Positions 35,784-45,454 of a stretch of DNA of 64,000 bases are shown in pieces. A program made the translations under genes and the position numbers. Numbering within the stretch: the stretch's first letter is position 1; each line of letters starts with the position of its first letter. The notes beneath the pieces were generated by a model that had not been told where the DNA came from, ran no database searches, and saw only the letters and a list, made by a program, of their open reading frames with translations. This DNA comes from a bacterium. GTDB taxonomy: Bacteria > BMS3Abin14. Location of the stretch: NCBI GenBank assembly GCA_020350725.1, contig CP070719.1, forward strand, positions 2,119,855 through 2,183,854, read 5' to 3'.

Positions 35784-36164
35784 CCTCCAGCTCTCCCCCT
35801 CGCCTGTCCCCGGATCGCAATTCCGTCCCCCGGCCCACTGCCAGCTCCCGACCCCTGTATGCACGACGTCCCCCAAGCCCGAGATCCCTCTCCACTCAGG
35901 TCGTCTAAGTGAATATTTTCTCCACCAGACCCTGTTCTCCTGTTAGAATGGAGACCCGTCGCCCTATTGAGCCCCGATGGCTTGTTTGACGATCGGGTGG
36001 CCGTTCATGCAGTCAGGGCGTTGGCGGTGAACCGTTTGAAACCGAAAGGGGTTAGCATGGAAAGGGGAAATGCGGGCAGGGAGCGTCACCCTCCCCTATG
36101 CCGTCCGGCACCGGGCAGAGCATCCGACCCCCTCCTGTCCAAAAACCGGGGACCCGGCAGCACG
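35784..36164. other. Spacer upstream of the binding-protein gene
   Basis: About 380 bases. The frame of the downstream gene is open over part of it (ATG at 36057 with AAGGGG before it), so up to 108 bases could be coding. Otherwise I see no gene or clear promoter. Confidence 0.4.
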
Positions 36165-37097
36165 GTGAAGAAAGGGAAACTTGCCAGATGGGGTTCCACA
36201 GCCCTTCTGTTGACCCTGGTGATCATCCCTGCCCAGTGCACCAGGGAGAAGGGCCCGACGGCGCCCGTTGAGAGGGTTTACAGCGAGCAACTCCTCATCG
36301 GACTCATCCCCGAGCACAACGTTTTCACCCAGCTCGAGAGATACGAACCCCTGGCGTCCTACCTGTCCGGAAAGGTCGGGGTCGAGGTCAAGTTAAAGAT
36401 CCTCTCCCGATACGGCAACATCATAGACAATTTTGTATCCCTGGGACTGGACGGAGCCTTCTTCGGCAGTTTCACCTACGGTCTCGCCCATGCGAAGCTG
36501 GGGCTCGACGTTCTCGCCCGACCCGAGAGCGCCGATGGCGTCTCCTCCTACTACGGTCTGATCTTCGTCAGGAAAGCCAGCGGCATCGCATCGGCCGCCG
36601 ACATGAAGGGCAAAAGATTCGCATTCGTGGACAAGGCAACCACCGCCGGATACCTTCTTCCCCTGGTCTATTTCAAGGAGAACGGGATCCCTGATTACAG
36701 GGAGTACTTCTCCGAGACCTACTTCACCGGCACCCACGAGGACTCTATCTACGACGTTCTCAACGGGCGGGCCGATGTGGGAGCGGCCAAGAACACGGTC
36801 TATTACCGGATCGCACAGTCCGACAGCAGGCTCCTGAACGACCTTGAGATCCTGGCCCAATCCCCGAGCGTCCCCGAGAACGCCCTTGCCGTCCGCGGGG
36901 ATCTGGACGGCGAGTTAAAGGACAGGCTGAAGACCGTTCTGCTGACAATGCACCAGGATCCCGAGGGCGAGGCGGTCCTGAGGAATTTCGGGGTGTCGAG
37001 GTTTATCGAGACGGTCAATGAGGATTACGCCCCGGTGTACGATTACGCGGAACTGGCCGGTCTGGAACTGGCAACCTATGACTGGGTGAACGAGTAG
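36165..37097 (+). CDS. PhnD-like periplasmic binding lipoprotein (phosphate/phosphonate-type ligand-binding family)
   Basis: GTG at 36165 gives a standard lipoprotein signal ending IIPAQC (Cys near residue 25); an ATG at 36057 has a better ribosome binding site but would put about 36 extra residues before the signal. The mature part has the PhnD-family pattern: LLIGLIPEHNVFTQLERYEPLASYLS, GLDGAFFGSFTYG (ligand pocket), YYGLIFVRKASGI, MKGKRFAFVDKATTAGYLLP and FSETYFTGTHEDSIYDVLNGRADVGA. No transporter permease or ATPase is nearby; instead it overlaps a histidine kinase gene by one base. It is therefore more likely a ligand sensor feeding the kinase than an importer component. Confidence 0.88.
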   Translation: MKKGKLARWGSTALLLTLVIIPAQCTREKGPTAPVERVYSEQLLIGLIPEHNVFTQLERYEPLASYLSGKVGVEVKLKILSRYGNIIDNFVSLGLDGAFFGSFTYGLAHAKLGLDVLARPESADGVSSYYGLIFVRKASGIASAADMKGKRFAFVDKATTAGYLLPLVYFKENGIPDYREYFSETYFTGTHEDSIYDVLNGRADVGAAKNTVYYRIAQSDSRLLNDLEILAQSPSVPENALAVRGDLDGELKDRLKTVLLTMHQDPEGEAVLRNFGVSRFIETVNEDYAPVYDYAELAGLELATYDWVNE

Positions 37098-38557
37098 TGA
37101 AGAGAAAGCTCTTCCTCACCCTGGTCCTCCTGTGCGGCGCCTCTATTTTGGGCGGAGGCTACCTGGTCGTCTCCATCGAGAGGTCCACCGGTACCCTGGA
37201 CGACCTGATCCAGCTCCATCGGGTGGAGATCCTGCGGGAACAGATGCTCATCCAGATCAAGAAGGTCCAGCGGGACCTCACCCTCAAGGATACCCGGCAC
37301 GAGAGGGAATTCGGCACCCTGGTCTCCCATGTATCCAAAATGAGCCGGACCATAGACTCCTGTTTCTCCTGTCATCACAACGAGGAAGTCACCGCGAGGC
37401 TGCGACGGCTTGCCGGGGATGCGGAAAAGTACAAGCATGCCCTGAGCCGCGTGTACACCATGAGGGCTAACACCCAGAGGCTGCGCCAGGAGGAGGACAA
37501 CGCTTTCCGGATCGGTGAGGAATTCATCGAAGAGGTCGACGGGATGCTCCTGATGACCACTGTGAACCTCGAGAGGAGGACGAGCGAGGTCCTGGAGAGG
37601 ATCCAGTTCTCCAAGGCCGTTCTCATCATCTTTACCATGCTCGGCCCCCTCCTCCTCATCGGACTGGCCGCCCTGCTCTTCATCAAATTCACCGAACCGG
37701 TCTCCGAGCTCCTGAGGGCGACCCAAAAGCTCAAGGCGGGGGACCTGGACTACCGTATCGAGGGCCTGAGGGACGAATTCGGCGAGGTTGCAGACTCCTT
37801 CAATGAGATGTCCGGAGCCCTGAAGGATCTTATGAGGAACATGATGCGCGCCGACCAGATGGTTCACATGGGCGAGTTGGCCTCGGGCCTGGCCCATGAG
37901 ATCAAGAACCCGATCGCGGGGATCAAACTGTCCATTGAGGTCCTCCTCGACGAGGTGGAACTGGATGAGGAATACCGGGAACTCCTTTACCAGACCCGGG
38001 AGCAGGTGCAGAACATGGAGCGGCTCATGAGGAGCCTCCTGAACTTCGCCAAGCCTCCCAAACCCGATTTTCAGATGGAGGATCTGAACGGGATCCTTGA
38101 CAACGCGATCTCGAACGTGGAACTGATCCTTCACGGACAGGTCTCTCAGGGGTATCAAGGAGAGGAGGTCAGGATCGTCCGGGAGTACGACACCCGCCTC
38201 CCCCAGGTCAGGGCCGACGCCTCTCAACTCCAGCAGATCTTCCTGAATCTCCTCCTGAACGGGGTGGACGCCATGCCCGGAGGGGGCACCCTGAAGGTCA
38301 GGACGTCGATGGGTGAACGCGACGGGTATTTCAAGGTGGAGATCTCCGACACGGGAGAGGGGATTGATCCGAATGTCCTGGTCAAGGTCTTCGATCCCTT
38401 CTTCACCACCAAGTCCAAGGGGACCGGCCTGGGGCTGGCGGTCAGCAAGCGGTTGGTGGAGCAGCACGGGGGGGAGATCACGGTGCGTAATAACGAAAGG
38501 TCCGGTGCGACCTTTGCCGTGTGGCTGCCTGGGGAGCCCTCGAGGGAGGTGTCATGA
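37097..38557 (+). CDS. Membrane sensor histidine kinase with a periplasmic CXXCH heme motif
   Basis: GTG start shares one base with the previous stop. TM1 is about residues 4-25, the periplasmic domain about 26-170 contains CFSCH at 89-93 followed by another His, and TM2 is about 173-195. HAMP (about 196-250), HisKA with His267 in LASGLAHEIKNPIAGIKL, and HATPase_c (N box NLLLNGVDAMPGG, DTGEGID, GTGLGLAVS) follow. The kinase core is complete. A single c-type heme in the sensor suggests redox, NO or CO sensing (inference). It is coupled by ATGA to the regulator, so binding protein, kinase and regulator form one operon. Confidence 0.92.
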   Translation: MKRKLFLTLVLLCGASILGGGYLVVSIERSTGTLDDLIQLHRVEILREQMLIQIKKVQRDLTLKDTRHEREFGTLVSHVSKMSRTIDSCFSCHHNEEVTARLRRLAGDAEKYKHALSRVYTMRANTQRLRQEEDNAFRIGEEFIEEVDGMLLMTTVNLERRTSEVLERIQFSKAVLIIFTMLGPLLLIGLAALLFIKFTEPVSELLRATQKLKAGDLDYRIEGLRDEFGEVADSFNEMSGALKDLMRNMMRADQMVHMGELASGLAHEIKNPIAGIKLSIEVLLDEVELDEEYRELLYQTREQVQNMERLMRSLLNFAKPPKPDFQMEDLNGILDNAISNVELILHGQVSQGYQGEEVRIVREYDTRLPQVRADASQLQQIFLNLLLNGVDAMPGGGTLKVRTSMGERDGYFKVEISDTGEGIDPNVLVKVFDPFFTTKSKGTGLGLAVSKRLVEQHGGEITVRNNERSGATFAVWLPGEPSREVS

Positions 38558-39951
38558 CCACCGGCGCTAAGGGGAGGATCTTCATCGTCGACGACGACCG
38601 CCTCATTGTATCGCTCCTGACCCGGACACTCCAGAGGGAAGGATTTGAGGTGATGTCCGCGCCAGACGCCGACCAGCTGGAGGAAAAGATAGCCTCCTTC
38701 CCCCCGGATATCCTCCTGCTGGACATCGGCCTGCCGGGGAGAAGCGGCCTCGACGTCCTGGCCGCCCTTCAGGAGAGGGGAATGGAGGCTCCCCAGGCAG
38801 TGATCCTCACCGCCGACGACACCGCTGACACCGCCATCAGGGCCATGAAGCTGGGAGCGGTGGATTATCTGGTCAAACCCTTCGAGATGGACAAGCTCAG
38901 GATCGTAATAAACAACATCATCGAGAAGGAGGATCTGCGGAGAAAGGTCGATTACCTGAGCAGGCTCAGCTCTGCCGTCTTCACGAAAAAAATGATCGGG
39001 GAGTCGGCAGCCATGAGGGACCTCAGGGAAAAAGCGGAGAAGTTGGCCGGGGCCAGGGTCTCGACCGTTCTCATCTCCGGGGAGAGCGGCACGGGCAAGG
39101 AGCTGCTGGCGCGGCACATCCACCAGCTGATCTACGGGGGCTCAGAGGAGGAATATGCCCCCTTTATGGCCATCAACTGCGCCGCAATACCGGATAACCT
39201 GATCGAAAGCGAGTTGTTCGGGCACGTCAAAGGGGCGTTTACCGATGCGAAATCAGACAAGAAAGGCGTTTTTGAGCTGGCGAACAATGGATCCCTGCTC
39301 CTGGACGAGATCGGAGAGATGAGGCCCGACCTGCAGAGCAAGCTGCTGCGGGTCCTGGAGGAGAGAACGGTCCGCCGGATCGGGGGCAGGAAAGCCGTGC
39401 CCGTACATGTGACGGTGATGGCCACCACCAACATCGATCTCGACCGATCGGTGCACGAAGGATTTTTCCGCAAGGACCTCTATTACCGCCTGAGCACCTT
39501 CCCTTTCCACATCCCGCCCCTCAGGCAGCGGAAAGAGGATATCATGCCCATCGCCTCCTATTTCGTTGAGTATTTCTGCGACAAGTTCCAGAAGAAGGCC
39601 ATCCGGGGCTTCTCCCCGGAGGCGGAGGGGATGATGCTCGCCTATTCGTGGCCCGGAAACGTCAGGGAGGTCAGAAACGCCATGGAGAGGATCGCTGTTC
39701 TCGAGAGCGCCGAGATCATCACGCCCGACCAGCTCCCGCGGGAGGTGGCCCTTCAGAAACGACCGGTCGATAGCACCGACCAGCCCGTTGTTATCCTGCC
39801 CGCGGACGGGATTCCCCTTGAGGCCGTTGAGGAGAGCCTTATCCGGCAGGCCCTTCAGAAGACGGATAACAACAGGGCCGGCGCGGCCAGGCTCCTTTCC
39901 ATCGGTTACGATGCCCTCAGGTACCGGATCAGGAAGTTAGGGATCGAGTGA
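38554..39951 (+). CDS. NtrC-family sigma-54-dependent response regulator
   Basis: Receiver domain with FIVDDDR and phospho-acceptor Asp57 (LLDIGLPG), AAA+ domain with Walker A GESGTGKE (about 175), the sigma-54 contact motif reading GAFTDA (about 227-232) rather than GAFTGA, Walker B SLLLDEIGEM, and a Fis-type helix-turn-helix at the C-terminus (NNRAGAARLLSIGYDALRYRIRKLGIE, quoted here only as a region of about 27 positions near 439-465). GAFTDA is a common natural variant. Start at the ATG at 38554 overlapping the kinase stop, with GGGAGG before it. The sigma-54 promoter and palindrome just downstream are its obvious candidate target. Confidence 0.95.
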   Translation: MTTGAKGRIFIVDDDRLIVSLLTRTLQREGFEVMSAPDADQLEEKIASFPPDILLLDIGLPGRSGLDVLAALQERGMEAPQAVILTADDTADTAIRAMKLGAVDYLVKPFEMDKLRIVINNIIEKEDLRRKVDYLSRLSSAVFTKKMIGESAAMRDLREKAEKLAGARVSTVLISGESGTGKELLARHIHQLIYGGSEEEYAPFMAINCAAIPDNLIESELFGHVKGAFTDAKSDKKGVFELANNGSLLLDEIGEMRPDLQSKLLRVLEERTVRRIGGRKAVPVHVTVMATTNIDLDRSVHEGFFRKDLYYRLSTFPFHIPPLRQRKEDIMPIASYFVEYFCDKFQKKAIRGFSPEAEGMMLAYSWPGNVREVRNAMERIAVLESAEIITPDQLPREVALQKRPVDSTDQPVVILPADGIPLEAVEESLIRQALQKTDNNRAGAARLLSIGYDALRYRIRKLGIE

Positions 39952-40084: not shown

Positions 40085-40120
40085 TGGTTATTTCACCAGT
40101 CCATCCTGGTGTAATAACCA
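40085..40120. promoter_or_regulatory. Inverted repeat, candidate enhancer site for the NtrC-family regulator
   Basis: Arms TGGTTATTTCACCAG (40085-40099) and CTGGTGTAATAACCA (40106-40120) pair at 14 of 15 positions around a six-base centre. The centre is about 115 bases upstream of the predicted transcription start of the sigma-54 promoter, the normal distance for an enhancer-binding activator. There is no T run after it, so a terminator is less likely. Confidence 0.7.
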
Positions 40121-40193
40121 GGTCCCTTGGCGCTGGCCGATGGGCACGCTGCCAATTGGTTGTTCGTAAAAGTTAATTCCTATTGGTCTCAAT

Positions 40194-40209
40194 TGGCACG
40201 TTCCTTGCC
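40194..40209 (+). promoter_or_regulatory. Sigma-54 (RpoN) promoter
   Basis: TGGCACG-N4-TTGCC matches the -24/-12 consensus, with GG at 40195-40196 and GC at 40207-40208 exactly 12 bases apart. It drives the barrel/decaheme/large cytochrome genes. Predicted transcription start about 40220. Confidence 0.88.
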
Positions 40210-40392: not shown

Positions 40393-41595
40393 ATGAGCAG
40401 GGGTTTGGCAGGATTCCTTTCGGTTGTGGTCGTCGCTTCCGTTCTTTTTCCCCTGAGCCATGCCTGCGCTGATTTTCGGCTCCGCGGCGACGCCGTGACA
40501 CATCTCGAGTGGTACGATGACCCCCAGGGCGACGAGGCGCTCCCGTTTTACCAATACCTCAGGATCAATCTGGATGACACAGCAGGTGGCCGGAAGTTCC
40601 GTATCTACGGCCGGCTGGCGGAGGATGTCAACAACGAGGTCGATACGGAAAGCCGGCTCTATTTCGCCTATTTCGAGAAGAAGGACGTCTGGGACAACAC
40701 CGATCTCAGAATAGGACGGCAGTGGGTCAACACGGTGGCCGGCTCACCCGTTCTGGACGGTCTTCAGGTCCGGTACCTGAGACCGGAGCTTTTCCGGCTG
40801 AAGGCCTACGGAGGGATCAACGCCTCCCTGGAGGATTATGAGTCCGACGAGGTCGTCTGGGGGTTTTCCGTGGAGGACGATTTCCTTGACAGGACCGATC
40901 TCGGCCTCAGTTACTACCAGAAGCGGGTCGACGGCGATCTGGCCCTGGAGTTCCTGGGGTTATCCGCCTGGACGAGGGTGGGGAAAAGAGGATCGGTCTT
41001 CGGGGAGCTGCAGTACGACCTGCTGTCGCAGATCCCCTCCTACTATCAGGCAGCCGTTCGTCTCGTTCCCAACGACAGGTGGACCTTCAGGGGTGAATAT
41101 TACGGTTTCACGCCGGTGTTCGATTCCACCTCCATCTATTCCGTCTTCGCCGTGGACGACTACGAGGAGGTGTCCGTCTCCGCGGACTACAGACTTGACC
41201 GGGAGTGGACCCTCTTCGCCAGGTACGCGAGGGAGTTCTACGAGTCCTTCGATGATTCCGATGTCGTGGAGGCCGGTGCGGAACTCATCCGGCCCAAGGA
41301 ATTGAGCGGTTACCTGGTCGCTGTTTTCAGGACCGGATATGAAGATCTCAACGGCATCAGGGCCAACGTCCGGGCTCCTCTCTACGGGGAGATCACCCTG
41401 GACGCCGGGGCCGAATACAACGTCTACGACAGGGTGGGGGACGACAGGGGCGACACCTCGTCCAAGAGGTACTGGCTGGCCGGGGAAAGGGATCTCGGAG
41501 AATCATTGAACCTGAGGGCCAAGGTCGAGAGGATAGAGAGTGAGATCTACGACTACTACAACCGGGGCAGGATCCGTCTCCGGTACACGTTCTAG
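40393..41595 (+). CDS. Outer-membrane beta-barrel protein (porin-like) of a porin-cytochrome cluster
   Basis: Signal peptide of about 27 residues ending HACA, then about 370 residues of alternating aromatic and polar strands with short turns, ending RIRLRYTF; a terminal Phe is the usual outer-membrane assembly signal. The N-terminal strands (FRLRGDAVTHLEWYDD, KFRIYGRLAEDV, LRIGRQWVNTVAGSPVLDGL) resemble uncharacterised barrels found beside multiheme cytochromes in Desulfobacterota. It is much smaller than MtrB-type barrels (about 700 residues). No heme motif. The ATG at 40393 is about 170 bases after the predicted sigma-54 start and is followed 10 bases later by the decaheme gene, suggesting one transmembrane unit. 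Confidence 0.8.
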   Translation: MSRGLAGFLSVVVVASVLFPLSHACADFRLRGDAVTHLEWYDDPQGDEALPFYQYLRINLDDTAGGRKFRIYGRLAEDVNNEVDTESRLYFAYFEKKDVWDNTDLRIGRQWVNTVAGSPVLDGLQVRYLRPELFRLKAYGGINASLEDYESDEVVWGFSVEDDFLDRTDLGLSYYQKRVDGDLALEFLGLSAWTRVGKRGSVFGELQYDLLSQIPSYYQAAVRLVPNDRWTFRGEYYGFTPVFDSTSIYSVFAVDDYEEVSVSADYRLDREWTLFARYAREFYESFDDSDVVEAGAELIRPKELSGYLVAVFRTGYEDLNGIRANVRAPLYGEITLDAGAEYNVYDRVGDDRGDTSSKRYWLAGERDLGESLNLRAKVERIESEIYDYYNRGRIRLRYTF

Positions 41596-41605
41596 GGGTA
41601 ACGCC

Positions 41606-42412
41606 ATGAAAAGGATCGTTCTCATCGCCATCCTTATTCTCGTGTGGGGCCTGCTTGCCGCCCACGCCGCCGGGTTGATCTTCGATCACGAGGTTCACGT
41701 GGCGGAGTACGAGTCCGACTGCGCCTCGTGCCATCGGCCCGGCGACCTGGACATCGTGCCCCCCGAGGCACGATGCGAGGACTGCCATGAGGCGGATTTT
41801 GTCAAAGAGGTCAAAATCCCCGCCAGGAAGACCCACGACAGCTTCTGGTACCGGGACCACGGTCCCTACACCAAGAAAGAGGCCAGGAACTGCGAGAGCT
41901 GTCATGACGATCGTTACTGTTTCGACTGCCACCGGTCCGGTTTCGCGGACGAGCAGGGGAAGCTCAACATCCACCGCAGCGACTACCGGGTGACCCATCC
42001 CATCGCCGCCCGCGCCGATGCCCGGAGCTGTTCGGTGTGCCACGAGGAGCGGTTCTGCACCGACTGTCACGCGGATTTCGCTCCCCAGGACCTGGCCTTC
42101 GCGTCCCACAGGAGGGGGTTTTCGGACATCACGGGTTTCGGGACGCCTCATTCCGCTTTCACCCCCGCCCAGTGCCCGACGTGCCATCCCGGCTCGGTGC
42201 TGACGACCCACGACTGGTCCGACAACCATGCCCGTGAGGCGAGGCGGAGCCTGCCCACCTGCCAGTCCTGTCATCCGGAGGGTGAGGTGTGTCTGAAGTG
42301 CCACAGCGCCCGGGAAGGGCTGGTGGTCAACCCCCATCCCGACAACTGGGGTGATATCGGTGATATTCTGAACGGCGCCGGTGACGGCCGGACCTGCCGG
42401 CGGTGCCATTAA
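41606..42412 (+). CDS. Periplasmic decaheme c-type cytochrome
   Basis: A signal peptide (hydrophobic to about residue 20) precedes ten CXXCH motifs in 268 residues: CASCH, CEDCH, CESCH, CFDCH, CSVCH, CTDCH, CPTCH, CQSCH, CLKCH and a terminal CRRCH. Heme density is close to one per 25 residues, as in MtrA-type electron-transfer modules that dock into an outer-membrane barrel. It lies between a barrel gene and a large lipoprotein cytochrome, the standard layout of a porin-cytochrome conduit. The start at 41606 is chosen for the signal peptide. Confidence 0.93.
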   Translation: MKRIVLIAILILVWGLLAAHAAGLIFDHEVHVAEYESDCASCHRPGDLDIVPPEARCEDCHEADFVKEVKIPARKTHDSFWYRDHGPYTKKEARNCESCHDDRYCFDCHRSGFADEQGKLNIHRSDYRVTHPIAARADARSCSVCHEERFCTDCHADFAPQDLAFASHRRGFSDITGFGTPHSAFTPAQCPTCHPGSVLTTHDWSDNHAREARRSLPTCQSCHPEGEVCLKCHSAREGLVVNPHPDNWGDIGDILNGAGDGRTCRRCH

Positions 42413-42427
42413 AAGGAGGAATGACCC

Positions 42428-45400
42428 ATGTTCCGGTTCGATCGCACGATACAGATCTCAGTGGTCCTTGCGGCCGTGGCGCTGCTCGTGGCGGGGTGCG
42501 GCAGTTCCCTGAAGGAGAGCGGAGGCGACCAGACCCGGGGTGACGCGGCACAGGAGATCCTCAGCGTTTTTAACTGCTCATGCCACACCCAGCAGGGGAC
42601 GTGGCTGGACAGTGACCACGCCAATGCTGAGAACATACCGGCTCCCACCCCCACCAACGATATCAACTGTTTCCCTTGTCACACAGGAACCGGTTATGTG
42701 GGTGCAATGGCCGAGCCGGATCCCCGCTATTTCGTCGACTGCGCATCCTGCCACGGGGGCCTGATCGACGAGCATGTCTGGCCCTTTCCCCAGCCCACCT
42801 TCTTTGCCTGCGGACAGTGCCACAACTCTGACTTTCCGGCCAATCACCTGCCCGATGCGCCCCTGGGCGGGAGCATCGACGAAAATTACCGGTTGAGTGA
42901 GCACTTCGATTCCCCCCAGGACGATTCTGCGCTGTGCTCCAGGTGTCACACCGACGAGGGATATCTTAAGTATGCGGAGGTCACAGCCGGTCTCGGACGG
43001 AGCGAACTCGAGGACCTCCTCACGGCCGAGCCCGACATCCTCAACGGCAATCCGGTCCAGTGCCGCACCTGCCACCGGTCCCATTCTCTCGATCTCGTCG
43101 GACAGGCAAAGGTGGTTTCAGAGGACAGCTTCGGATCCCCCGTCTCCTCGCCGGCCGGTGCGACCGAACGGGTCTTTTCCGCATCCTTCAACCTGTGCAC
43201 CAGCTGTCACCAGGTGTTCCTGCAGTACACCTGGGATAACGACAGCGAGACCTTTGCCTACGGGCTGGACCCGGCCATATACGGAAGCCCTTCCGTTCTG
43301 GGCAGCGACGCGGAATATCATGCCGGCGACCTCGACCTGGTGATCTACGATTCCCATTTTCCCGGCACCTACAACGGGACGCCGGTGGCGGGCTACAACA
43401 TCAACGCCGCCGACGAGAAGGCCTGCGTCCAGTGCCACGATCCCCACGGCGCCTCCAAATTCGACCAGGCCAGCATCAGAGATCTTGTCGAGGAGTGGGG
43501 AAATACACCCGGCTTCCACGGTGACTACATGAACTGGGCCTACCGTCAGGACGTGGACTGCGCCCGCTGCCACTCCGGCAGCGAGTACATCAAGCTCACC
43601 GCCGGGCAGGACCCGGACAAGCTGGACAGCAACCAGGCCCGGGTGGTGGCCTGCTACAGCTGCCACCCCCTCACCGCGCTCAACGACGCCGAAACCGCCT
43701 TCTCCCTGGGCTCGAGGTGGACCATCGACGAGTTCGTCTTCCCCTCGGCCCTGTTCACCGTGGAAGGACTCGGAGACAACGCCCTGTGCATGAACTGCCA
43801 CTCCGGGCGCCGATCCAAGGCCGACGTGGACGCGGCCATCGCCGCCGGGAGCTCGGTCCTCGAGTTTCGAGAGATCAACCCGCACTACCGCATGGCCGGC
43901 GCGACGCTGTTCGGCAACTTCTCCCAGGGCGGCTACGAGTTCGACGGCAAGGCCTACGCCTCGAAATTCGAGCACGTAGCCTCCAACGACCTGTGTGTGG
44001 AGTGTCACAACGCTCACTCGGGCAAGCTGTTCATCGCCGACGCCCCGCCCGGCAGGGTGAGCTGCGACACCTGTCACGACGGGGTGGCCACCGTGGAGGA
44101 CCTGCGCGACATCAGGGTTATCGGCGACCTGGCTCCCGCCTCCGAGGCGGTGGACTACGACGGCGACGGTGATGCGGGCGAAGGGATCTTCTACGAGATG
44201 GAGACCCTCCAGGAACTGCTCGGCGACGCCCTGGTGGCGGCCGAGGTGGAGGATCTGGGCCGTTACCCCTATTTCAGCAACATCACGACGGCGGACCAGT
44301 ACCGGGCCGCCTACAACCTGCAGTGGGTCCGGTCGGACCCCGGCCATTACGCCCACAACGCCGCCTATGTTATCGAGCTGATGGTGGACTCCCTGGAAGC
44401 CCTCGGGGTGACGGTCAACCCGGACACCTCCAACCCGCTCCACCGGGACGCCGAGGGGCACTTCAACGCCGCCGCTGAGGCTTTCCGCTACTGGGACGAG
44501 GACGGTGTTGTCCAGCCGACCTGCTCAAGATGCCACGCCTCCGAGGGGGCGGCCTACTTCTTCGACACCGGGGACCTGATCACGGAGCCGGAATACACGG
44601 AGTACACGAAGGGGATCTCGGCCGGTTTCGCCTGCGAGACGTGCCACGTCGTTGATTCCTTCTCCGGCGCCTTCGAGGGCGATCTGTGGAACGTGGCTGA
44701 TGTGACCTTCCCCTCGGGCTTTGTGGTCGACATCGGGGATGAGAGCAACCTGTGCGCTCAGTGCCACCAGGGCCGGGAATCGGGTGTGTCCGTGGCCGAT
44801 CGCATTGCCGCTGCCGACACCCACACCTTCATCAACCGCCACTACCTGGCGGCGGCGGCCATACAGTACGGGTCTGAAGCCACGGCGGCCTTCGAATACG
44901 CGGGGCAACTCTACGCGGGCTACAACACGTTCGAGGATCACCTGGCTTCCCAGAAAACCTGCCTGGGCTGCCACATGAGGGGCGTGGAGGACCACACCTT
45001 CAAACCGGCCCTGACGGATTGTGACAACGCCCTGTGTCACGCCGGGATCACCGATTTCGACGACATCGCCGAGCCCGGTGGACCGACGACCGACTACGAC
45101 GGGGACGGTCTGGCCGGCAGTTTCCAGGACGAGATCGACGGGATGCTGGCACTCCTCATCCTCGAGATCCAGGATTACGCGGCTACGGAGCTGAGTGAAC
45201 CCATCGTCTACTCACCGGTCAATTATCCCTACTTCTTCAACGACACCGACGCCGACGGTGTGGGAGATCCGGACGAACTGTCCTTCGGCAACCGCTATTC
45301 GATATTCGACGATATGCTTTTGGCGGCGGCCTTCAACTACCACTCGGGGCGTGATCCCTGCGGTCATATTCACAATTACCGCTACGTCATCCAGACCCTG

Positions 45401-45454
45401 TATGATTCCATCGAGAGCCTGGGCGGTGATGTGAGTGCGTTGACGAGGCCTTGA
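42428..45454 (+). CDS. Large multiheme c-type cytochrome lipoprotein (at least 16 hemes)
   Basis: AGGAGG precedes the ATG. The lipoprotein signal ends LLVAGC (Cys24). Across 1008 residues I count 16 canonical CXXCH motifs (first CFPCH, last CLGCH), plus two unusual ones: CSCH near residue 50 (one residue between Cys) and CDNALCH near 865 (CX4CH). Two related blocks are visible, about 453-660 and 776-1000: each opens with a CXXCH followed by Gln/Ser-Gly-Arg, passes through a GY-FxF/Y-DGK/AGQLY stretch and ends in a heme-poor region of the form YPYF...YVI..L.DS.ESLG. The protein probably sits on the outer membrane surface, taking electrons from the barrel-decaheme module. The terminal acceptor is unknown. 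Confidence 0.93.
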   Translation: MFRFDRTIQISVVLAAVALLVAGCGSSLKESGGDQTRGDAAQEILSVFNCSCHTQQGTWLDSDHANAENIPAPTPTNDINCFPCHTGTGYVGAMAEPDPRYFVDCASCHGGLIDEHVWPFPQPTFFACGQCHNSDFPANHLPDAPLGGSIDENYRLSEHFDSPQDDSALCSRCHTDEGYLKYAEVTAGLGRSELEDLLTAEPDILNGNPVQCRTCHRSHSLDLVGQAKVVSEDSFGSPVSSPAGATERVFSASFNLCTSCHQVFLQYTWDNDSETFAYGLDPAIYGSPSVLGSDAEYHAGDLDLVIYDSHFPGTYNGTPVAGYNINAADEKACVQCHDPHGASKFDQASIRDLVEEWGNTPGFHGDYMNWAYRQDVDCARCHSGSEYIKLTAGQDPDKLDSNQARVVACYSCHPLTALNDAETAFSLGSRWTIDEFVFPSALFTVEGLGDNALCMNCHSGRRSKADVDAAIAAGSSVLEFREINPHYRMAGATLFGNFSQGGYEFDGKAYASKFEHVASNDLCVECHNAHSGKLFIADAPPGRVSCDTCHDGVATVEDLRDIRVIGDLAPASEAVDYDGDGDAGEGIFYEMETLQELLGDALVAAEVEDLGRYPYFSNITTADQYRAAYNLQWVRSDPGHYAHNAAYVIELMVDSLEALGVTVNPDTSNPLHRDAEGHFNAAAEAFRYWDEDGVVQPTCSRCHASEGAAYFFDTGDLITEPEYTEYTKGISAGFACETCHVVDSFSGAFEGDLWNVADVTFPSGFVVDIGDESNLCAQCHQGRESGVSVADRIAAADTHTFINRHYLAAAAIQYGSEATAAFEYAGQLYAGYNTFEDHLASQKTCLGCHMRGVEDHTFKPALTDCDNALCHAGITDFDDIAEPGGPTTDYDGDGLAGSFQDEIDGMLALLILEIQDYAATELSEPIVYSPVNYPYFFNDTDADGVGDPDELSFGNRYSIFDDMLLAAAFNYHSGRDPCGHIHNYRYVIQTLYDSIESLGGDVSALTRP

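Follow-up and report, generated by a model that had tools for sequence, protein, structure and literature searches.

The window, the whole stretch of 64,000 nucleotides that was analysed, contains a 36-base inverted repeat between the gene of an NtrC-type response regulator and a predicted porin-cytochrome operon, raising the question of whether this element is an enhancer for the operon, as proposed in the initial annotation, or something else. Comparison of the locus with related genomes points, with a probability of roughly 0.87, to an upstream activating sequence, or enhancer, through which the adjacent response regulator would control the porin-cytochrome operon. The predicted functional unit that is supported is, however, a pair of tandem dyads (TGGT-N6-ACCA) rather than the single 36-base palindrome of the original proposal. 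The features of the locus are as follows.

35967-37097, forward strand: PhnD-like periplasmic substrate-binding protein (PF12974, E 1.7e-61)
37097-38557, forward strand: membrane sensor histidine kinase (HAMP, HisKA and HATPase domains)
38521-39951, forward strand: NtrC-type response regulator, the likely binder as predicted (Response_reg PF00072, Sigma54_activat PF00158, Fis-type HTH_8 PF02954); the start codon may lie slightly downstream of 38521
40085-40098, unstranded: distal dyad, predicted upstream operator, TGGTTATTTCACCA, an exact TGGT-N6-ACCA match centred at about -128
40107-40120, unstranded: proximal dyad, predicted upstream operator, TGGTGTAATAACCA, an exact TGGT-N6-ACCA match centred at about -106
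40194-40209, forward strand: sigma-54 -24/-12 promoter element TGGCACGttccTTGCC, a perfect match to the consensus TGGCACG-N4-TTGCC
40393-41595, forward strand: predicted outer-membrane porin, first gene of the operon (weak Porin_4 match below the Pfam cut-off, signal-like N-terminus)
41540-42412, forward strand: decahaem c-type cytochrome, predicted periplasmic (10 CXXCH motifs, Cytochrome_C7 and MtrC/MtrF-like domain); the true start is probably downstream of 41540
42428-45454, forward strand: 16-haem c-type cytochrome, predicted outer-surface lipoprotein (16 CXXCH motifs, lipobox LLVAGC, MtrC/MtrF-like domain)

The inverted repeat occupies positions 40085-40120, downstream of the regulator gene and approximately 130 bases past its stop codon, and consists of 15-base arms around a 6-base loop (TGGTTATTTCACCAG-tccatc-CTGGTGTAATAACCA). 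Pairing of 40085-40099 with 40106-40120 involves 14 of the 15 arm positions, as had been described. When the intergenic region was shuffled 300 times with its dinucleotides preserved, no 15-base repeat had 14 pairs, and the maximum of 13 was reached once. The promoter element named in the initial annotation was likewise recovered and is one of only two perfect TGGCACGN4TTGC matches found by pattern search of the 2.78-Mb genome. Because one-mismatch -24/-12 sites occur in the genome at close to the frequency of a reversed-pattern control, weight is given only to the perfect match and its context. Taking the GG at 40195-40196 as -25/-24 predicts a transcription start at about 40220 and therefore places the centre of the palindrome (40102.5) at about -117, in good agreement with the earlier estimate of about 115 bases. 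A search for an IHF site between the enhancer and the promoter produced only unconvincing matches with two mismatches. Short repeats of the CCAATTGG type (TGCCAATTG and CAATTGGCA) occupy 40150-40198, in the interval from the enhancer to the -24 box, which they overlap.

Each arm of the palindrome is itself a 14-bp dyad of the form TGGT-N6-ACCA. The dyads start 22 bp apart, or about two helical turns, and the start of the proximal dyad lies 87 bp from the -24/-12 box. The locus displays sequence features of a sigma-54 upstream activating sequence, namely more than one dyad-symmetric site, in helical phase and at a suitable distance from a downstream -24/-12 promoter. Since the pattern TGGT-N6-ACCA is its own reverse complement, neither dyad in the window is evidence independent of the other, and a test was therefore needed elsewhere; the independent evidence comes from an ortholog in a second genome, G009. 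The motif was defined after inspection of both sequences, from the window and from G009.

G009 belongs to the same family and is the sole genome in which an orthologous regulator (65% identical) was found; no further ortholog was detected among relatives, in the order, in the phylum (n = 12 genomes) or in a contig set of 84,980 species. At the equivalent place G009 carries a distal dyad, CGGCTATTTGACCA, and a proximal dyad, TGGTGAACTCACCA, each identical to its counterpart in the window at 11 of 14 positions, with the 22-bp spacing preserved. A -24/-12 box, TGGCATGccccTTGCT, is also found at the equivalent place upstream of the porin gene, at a distance from the dyad of 88 bp versus 87 bp in the window. 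The 8-base spacer between the dyads matches at two of eight positions, and the DNA following the dyads at 19 of 74 positions without gaps or 35 of 75 columns with gaps; within 40150-40198, TTGG and AAAA stretches are partially retained. In a common orientation both sites read approximately TGGT-TATTTC-ACCA, and they are arranged head to head. When both genomes were scanned for the tandem pattern with up to three mismatches, the best matches were the two porin loci (zero mismatches in the window, two in G009), and all remaining matches had three mismatches, the level of the reversed-pattern control. Shuffling the G009 upstream DNA 20000 times produced a pattern with two mismatches once, and never at the right distance. 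A scan of the left arm over 15.7 kb of G009 placed the top three 14-mer matches inside the element. A single-domain receiver gene (L069:9561-10052) is situated between the regulator and the enhancer in G009, convergent with the regulator, and since its start is close to the enhancer it may share the control region.

A third genome, G004, contains the target genes: the same aldo/keto reductase-like gene is followed there by the gene for the porin (59% identical) and those for the two cytochromes. No kinase-regulator genes are present between that gene and the porin, and the regulator ortholog is missing from the genome, the best match being 44% identical. The 720 bases upstream of the G004 porin contain no -24/-12 box within three mismatches and no tandem site within five. 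The regulator, operators and promoter are all present in the window and in G009 and all missing in G004, suggesting that they travel together. The assignment of the enhancer to the neighbouring regulator is thus supported by the dyads, 22-bp spacing and box distance kept in G009 and by the absence of all of these from G004.

The nearest regulator had been described as NtrC-type with a Fis-type end, which is borne out by its receiver, AAA+ sigma-54 activator and Fis-type helix-turn-helix domains; its nearest structural relatives are NtrC-family regulators. The sigma-54 contact loop reads GAFTDA in both the window regulator and its G009 ortholog, compared with the textbook form GAFTGA, and GAFTDA occurs in 12 of 30 sampled regulators, these two included. 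A single RpoN is encoded in the genome, and one match was obtained in every phylum genome searched.

The same genome has genes for at least nine further regulators of the NtrC type (E < 1e-80), and the assignment to the neighbour consequently rests on position and co-occurrence. Adjacency is no proof, and the dyads could serve another regulator, such as a repressor or a paralogous activator of the NtrC type. This is considered unlikely, as two genomes have the sites, the -24/-12 box and the neighbouring regulator, all three of which G004 lacks, and as the recognition-helix region, AGAARLLSIGYDALRY, is identical in the window regulator and its G009 ortholog. A coincidence of a chance palindrome with a chance -24/-12 match, to which the near-control number of one-mismatch promoter matches lends some credence, is highly improbable given the shuffling results for the repeat and for the G009 tandem pattern and a geometry that is kept across two genomes.

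The palindrome might alternatively be a transcription terminator or RNA hairpin that ends the regulator transcript, a possibility already raised in the initial annotation. Its distance from the regulator stop codon is compatible with such a role, and the RNA folds to -19 kcal/mol, far below shuffled sequences (z -4.5). However, neither strand has a U-tract after the stem, and a terminator scan did not report the element. The 36-base palindrome is also absent from G009, where the long hairpin is not formed and the RNA folds with other pairing to -9.3 kcal/mol, versus -18.5 kcal/mol for the window. In addition, the convergent receiver gene separates the regulator from the element in G009, yet the dyads and their distance from the promoter are kept. 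A terminator is accordingly disfavoured and regarded as quite improbable, leaving an enhancer composed of two dyads as the preferred reading.

How far the enhancer pattern extends beyond this operon was assessed by pattern searches, on which all genome-wide statements rest. A scan upstream of other -24/-12 promoters, as had been suggested, identified a perfect dyad within 300 bp upstream only at this locus among the 41 near-consensus -24/-12 sites of the genome; four of the 41 have a single one-mismatch dyad, which is about the chance level, and a wider regulon was rejected on these grounds. An interpretation of the arms as a dispersed repeat was also rejected, since matches to the arm pattern elsewhere are at the control level. 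The other perfect TGGCACGN4TTGC site (L009:1501-1515) has one partial dyad only; it stands in front of an lpxC-like gene that follows Rnf-like genes, a setting in which a sigma-54 promoter is unusual.

The mechanism of sigma-54 activation by NtrC-type regulators is textbook knowledge, and binding, phosphorylation and looping at this locus are inferred because they are established for such activators. The adjacent response regulator would occupy the sites at about -128 and -106 as two dimers, which the 22-bp separation of the head-to-head operators would place next to each other on the same helical face. Once phosphorylated by the partner kinase, the regulator would form an AAA+ ring and, through a DNA loop, reach sigma-54 RNA polymerase at the -24/-12 box; its hydrolysis of ATP would then open the porin-cytochrome promoter. 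The kinase could perhaps respond, through a periplasmic haem c, to redox state or to a gas. Between 33000 and 38600 no -24/-12 box within two mismatches was found that would indicate sigma-54 autoregulation.

The kinase contains a single CXXCH motif (CFSCH) at residue 89, in a predicted periplasmic loop, with CLTCH in the G009 ortholog. Conservation of this motif suggests a covalently bound haem c, through which the kinase may sense redox state or a gas, and the motif further suggests that the predicted extracellular-electron-transfer conduit is controlled by such a signal. The gene for the PhnD-like substrate-binding lipoprotein lies directly 5' of the kinase gene with a one-base overlap, and its product is possibly part of the signalling operon. 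No PhnD-like open reading frame of at least 150 amino acids adjoins the kinase in G009 (L069), which may make this gene an optional part of the system. Tentatively, the haem c kinase, the PhnD-like protein and the sigma-54 activator with its tandem enhancer could form a dedicated switch with which redox state or a gas turns one extracellular-electron-transfer conduit on and off; the switch and the promoter would be acquired or lost jointly, as a cassette.

The locus adds a new, well-supported case to a familiar class of bacterial control regions. NtrC-type upstream activating sequences for sigma-54 promoters have been catalogued in Desulfovibrio vulgaris (PMC4641369), and in the parts of that survey available here they resemble the present sites in being short inverted repeats upstream of -24/-12 elements, with the regulator adjoining its target and a small regulon. 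They differ in their half-sites, which form TGT/ACA groups in the survey, in contrast to TGGT/ACCA with six intervening bases in the window; motif figures aside, its text as available contains no TGGT or ACCA site. The same survey describes the DVU3142-Ohc regulon of the Desulfovibrionales, in which predicted activator sites and promoters upstream of the Ohc genes place an electron-transport system under the predicted control of a sigma-54 activator; the regulator and target proteins are different. In Geobacter sulfurreducens the RpoN regulon includes the outer-membrane cytochrome gene omcB, which is affected by RpoN (PMC2725144), indicating a comparable sigma-54 influence on cytochromes of extracellular electron transfer, and the consensus TTGGCACGGTTTTTGCT is close to the box in the window. 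In contrast to the present locus, the available portion of that study assigns neither an enhancer nor a specific activator to a porin-cytochrome cluster. In the literature as far as it was accessible, there is little documentation of a dedicated sigma-54 activator governing such conduits. The window thus offers a concrete operator sequence for an uncharacterised regulator from a small, poorly sampled phylum, and the tandem dyads with 22-bp spacing are expected wherever this regulator adjoins a porin gene. It also links a sensor kinase carrying a haem-attachment motif to a predicted electron-export conduit.

The operon layout resembles that of porin-cytochrome conduits for extracellular electron transfer. 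Clusters of the Pcc/Mtr type have the order porin, periplasmic multihaem cytochrome and outer-surface multihaem lipoprotein cytochrome. The same order is seen in the window, with a weak porin match and cytochromes of 10 and 16 CXXCH motifs, a likeness confined to gene order and haem counts. The window proteins have no close sequence match among named conduit families. The porin orthologs are 53% and 59% identical, the latter being that of G004. The surface cytochrome varies greatly in size and haem count between genomes, with 16 CXXCH motifs in the window, nine in G009 and eight in G004, and its decahaem partner is nearly constant, with 10, 10 and nine motifs, respectively.
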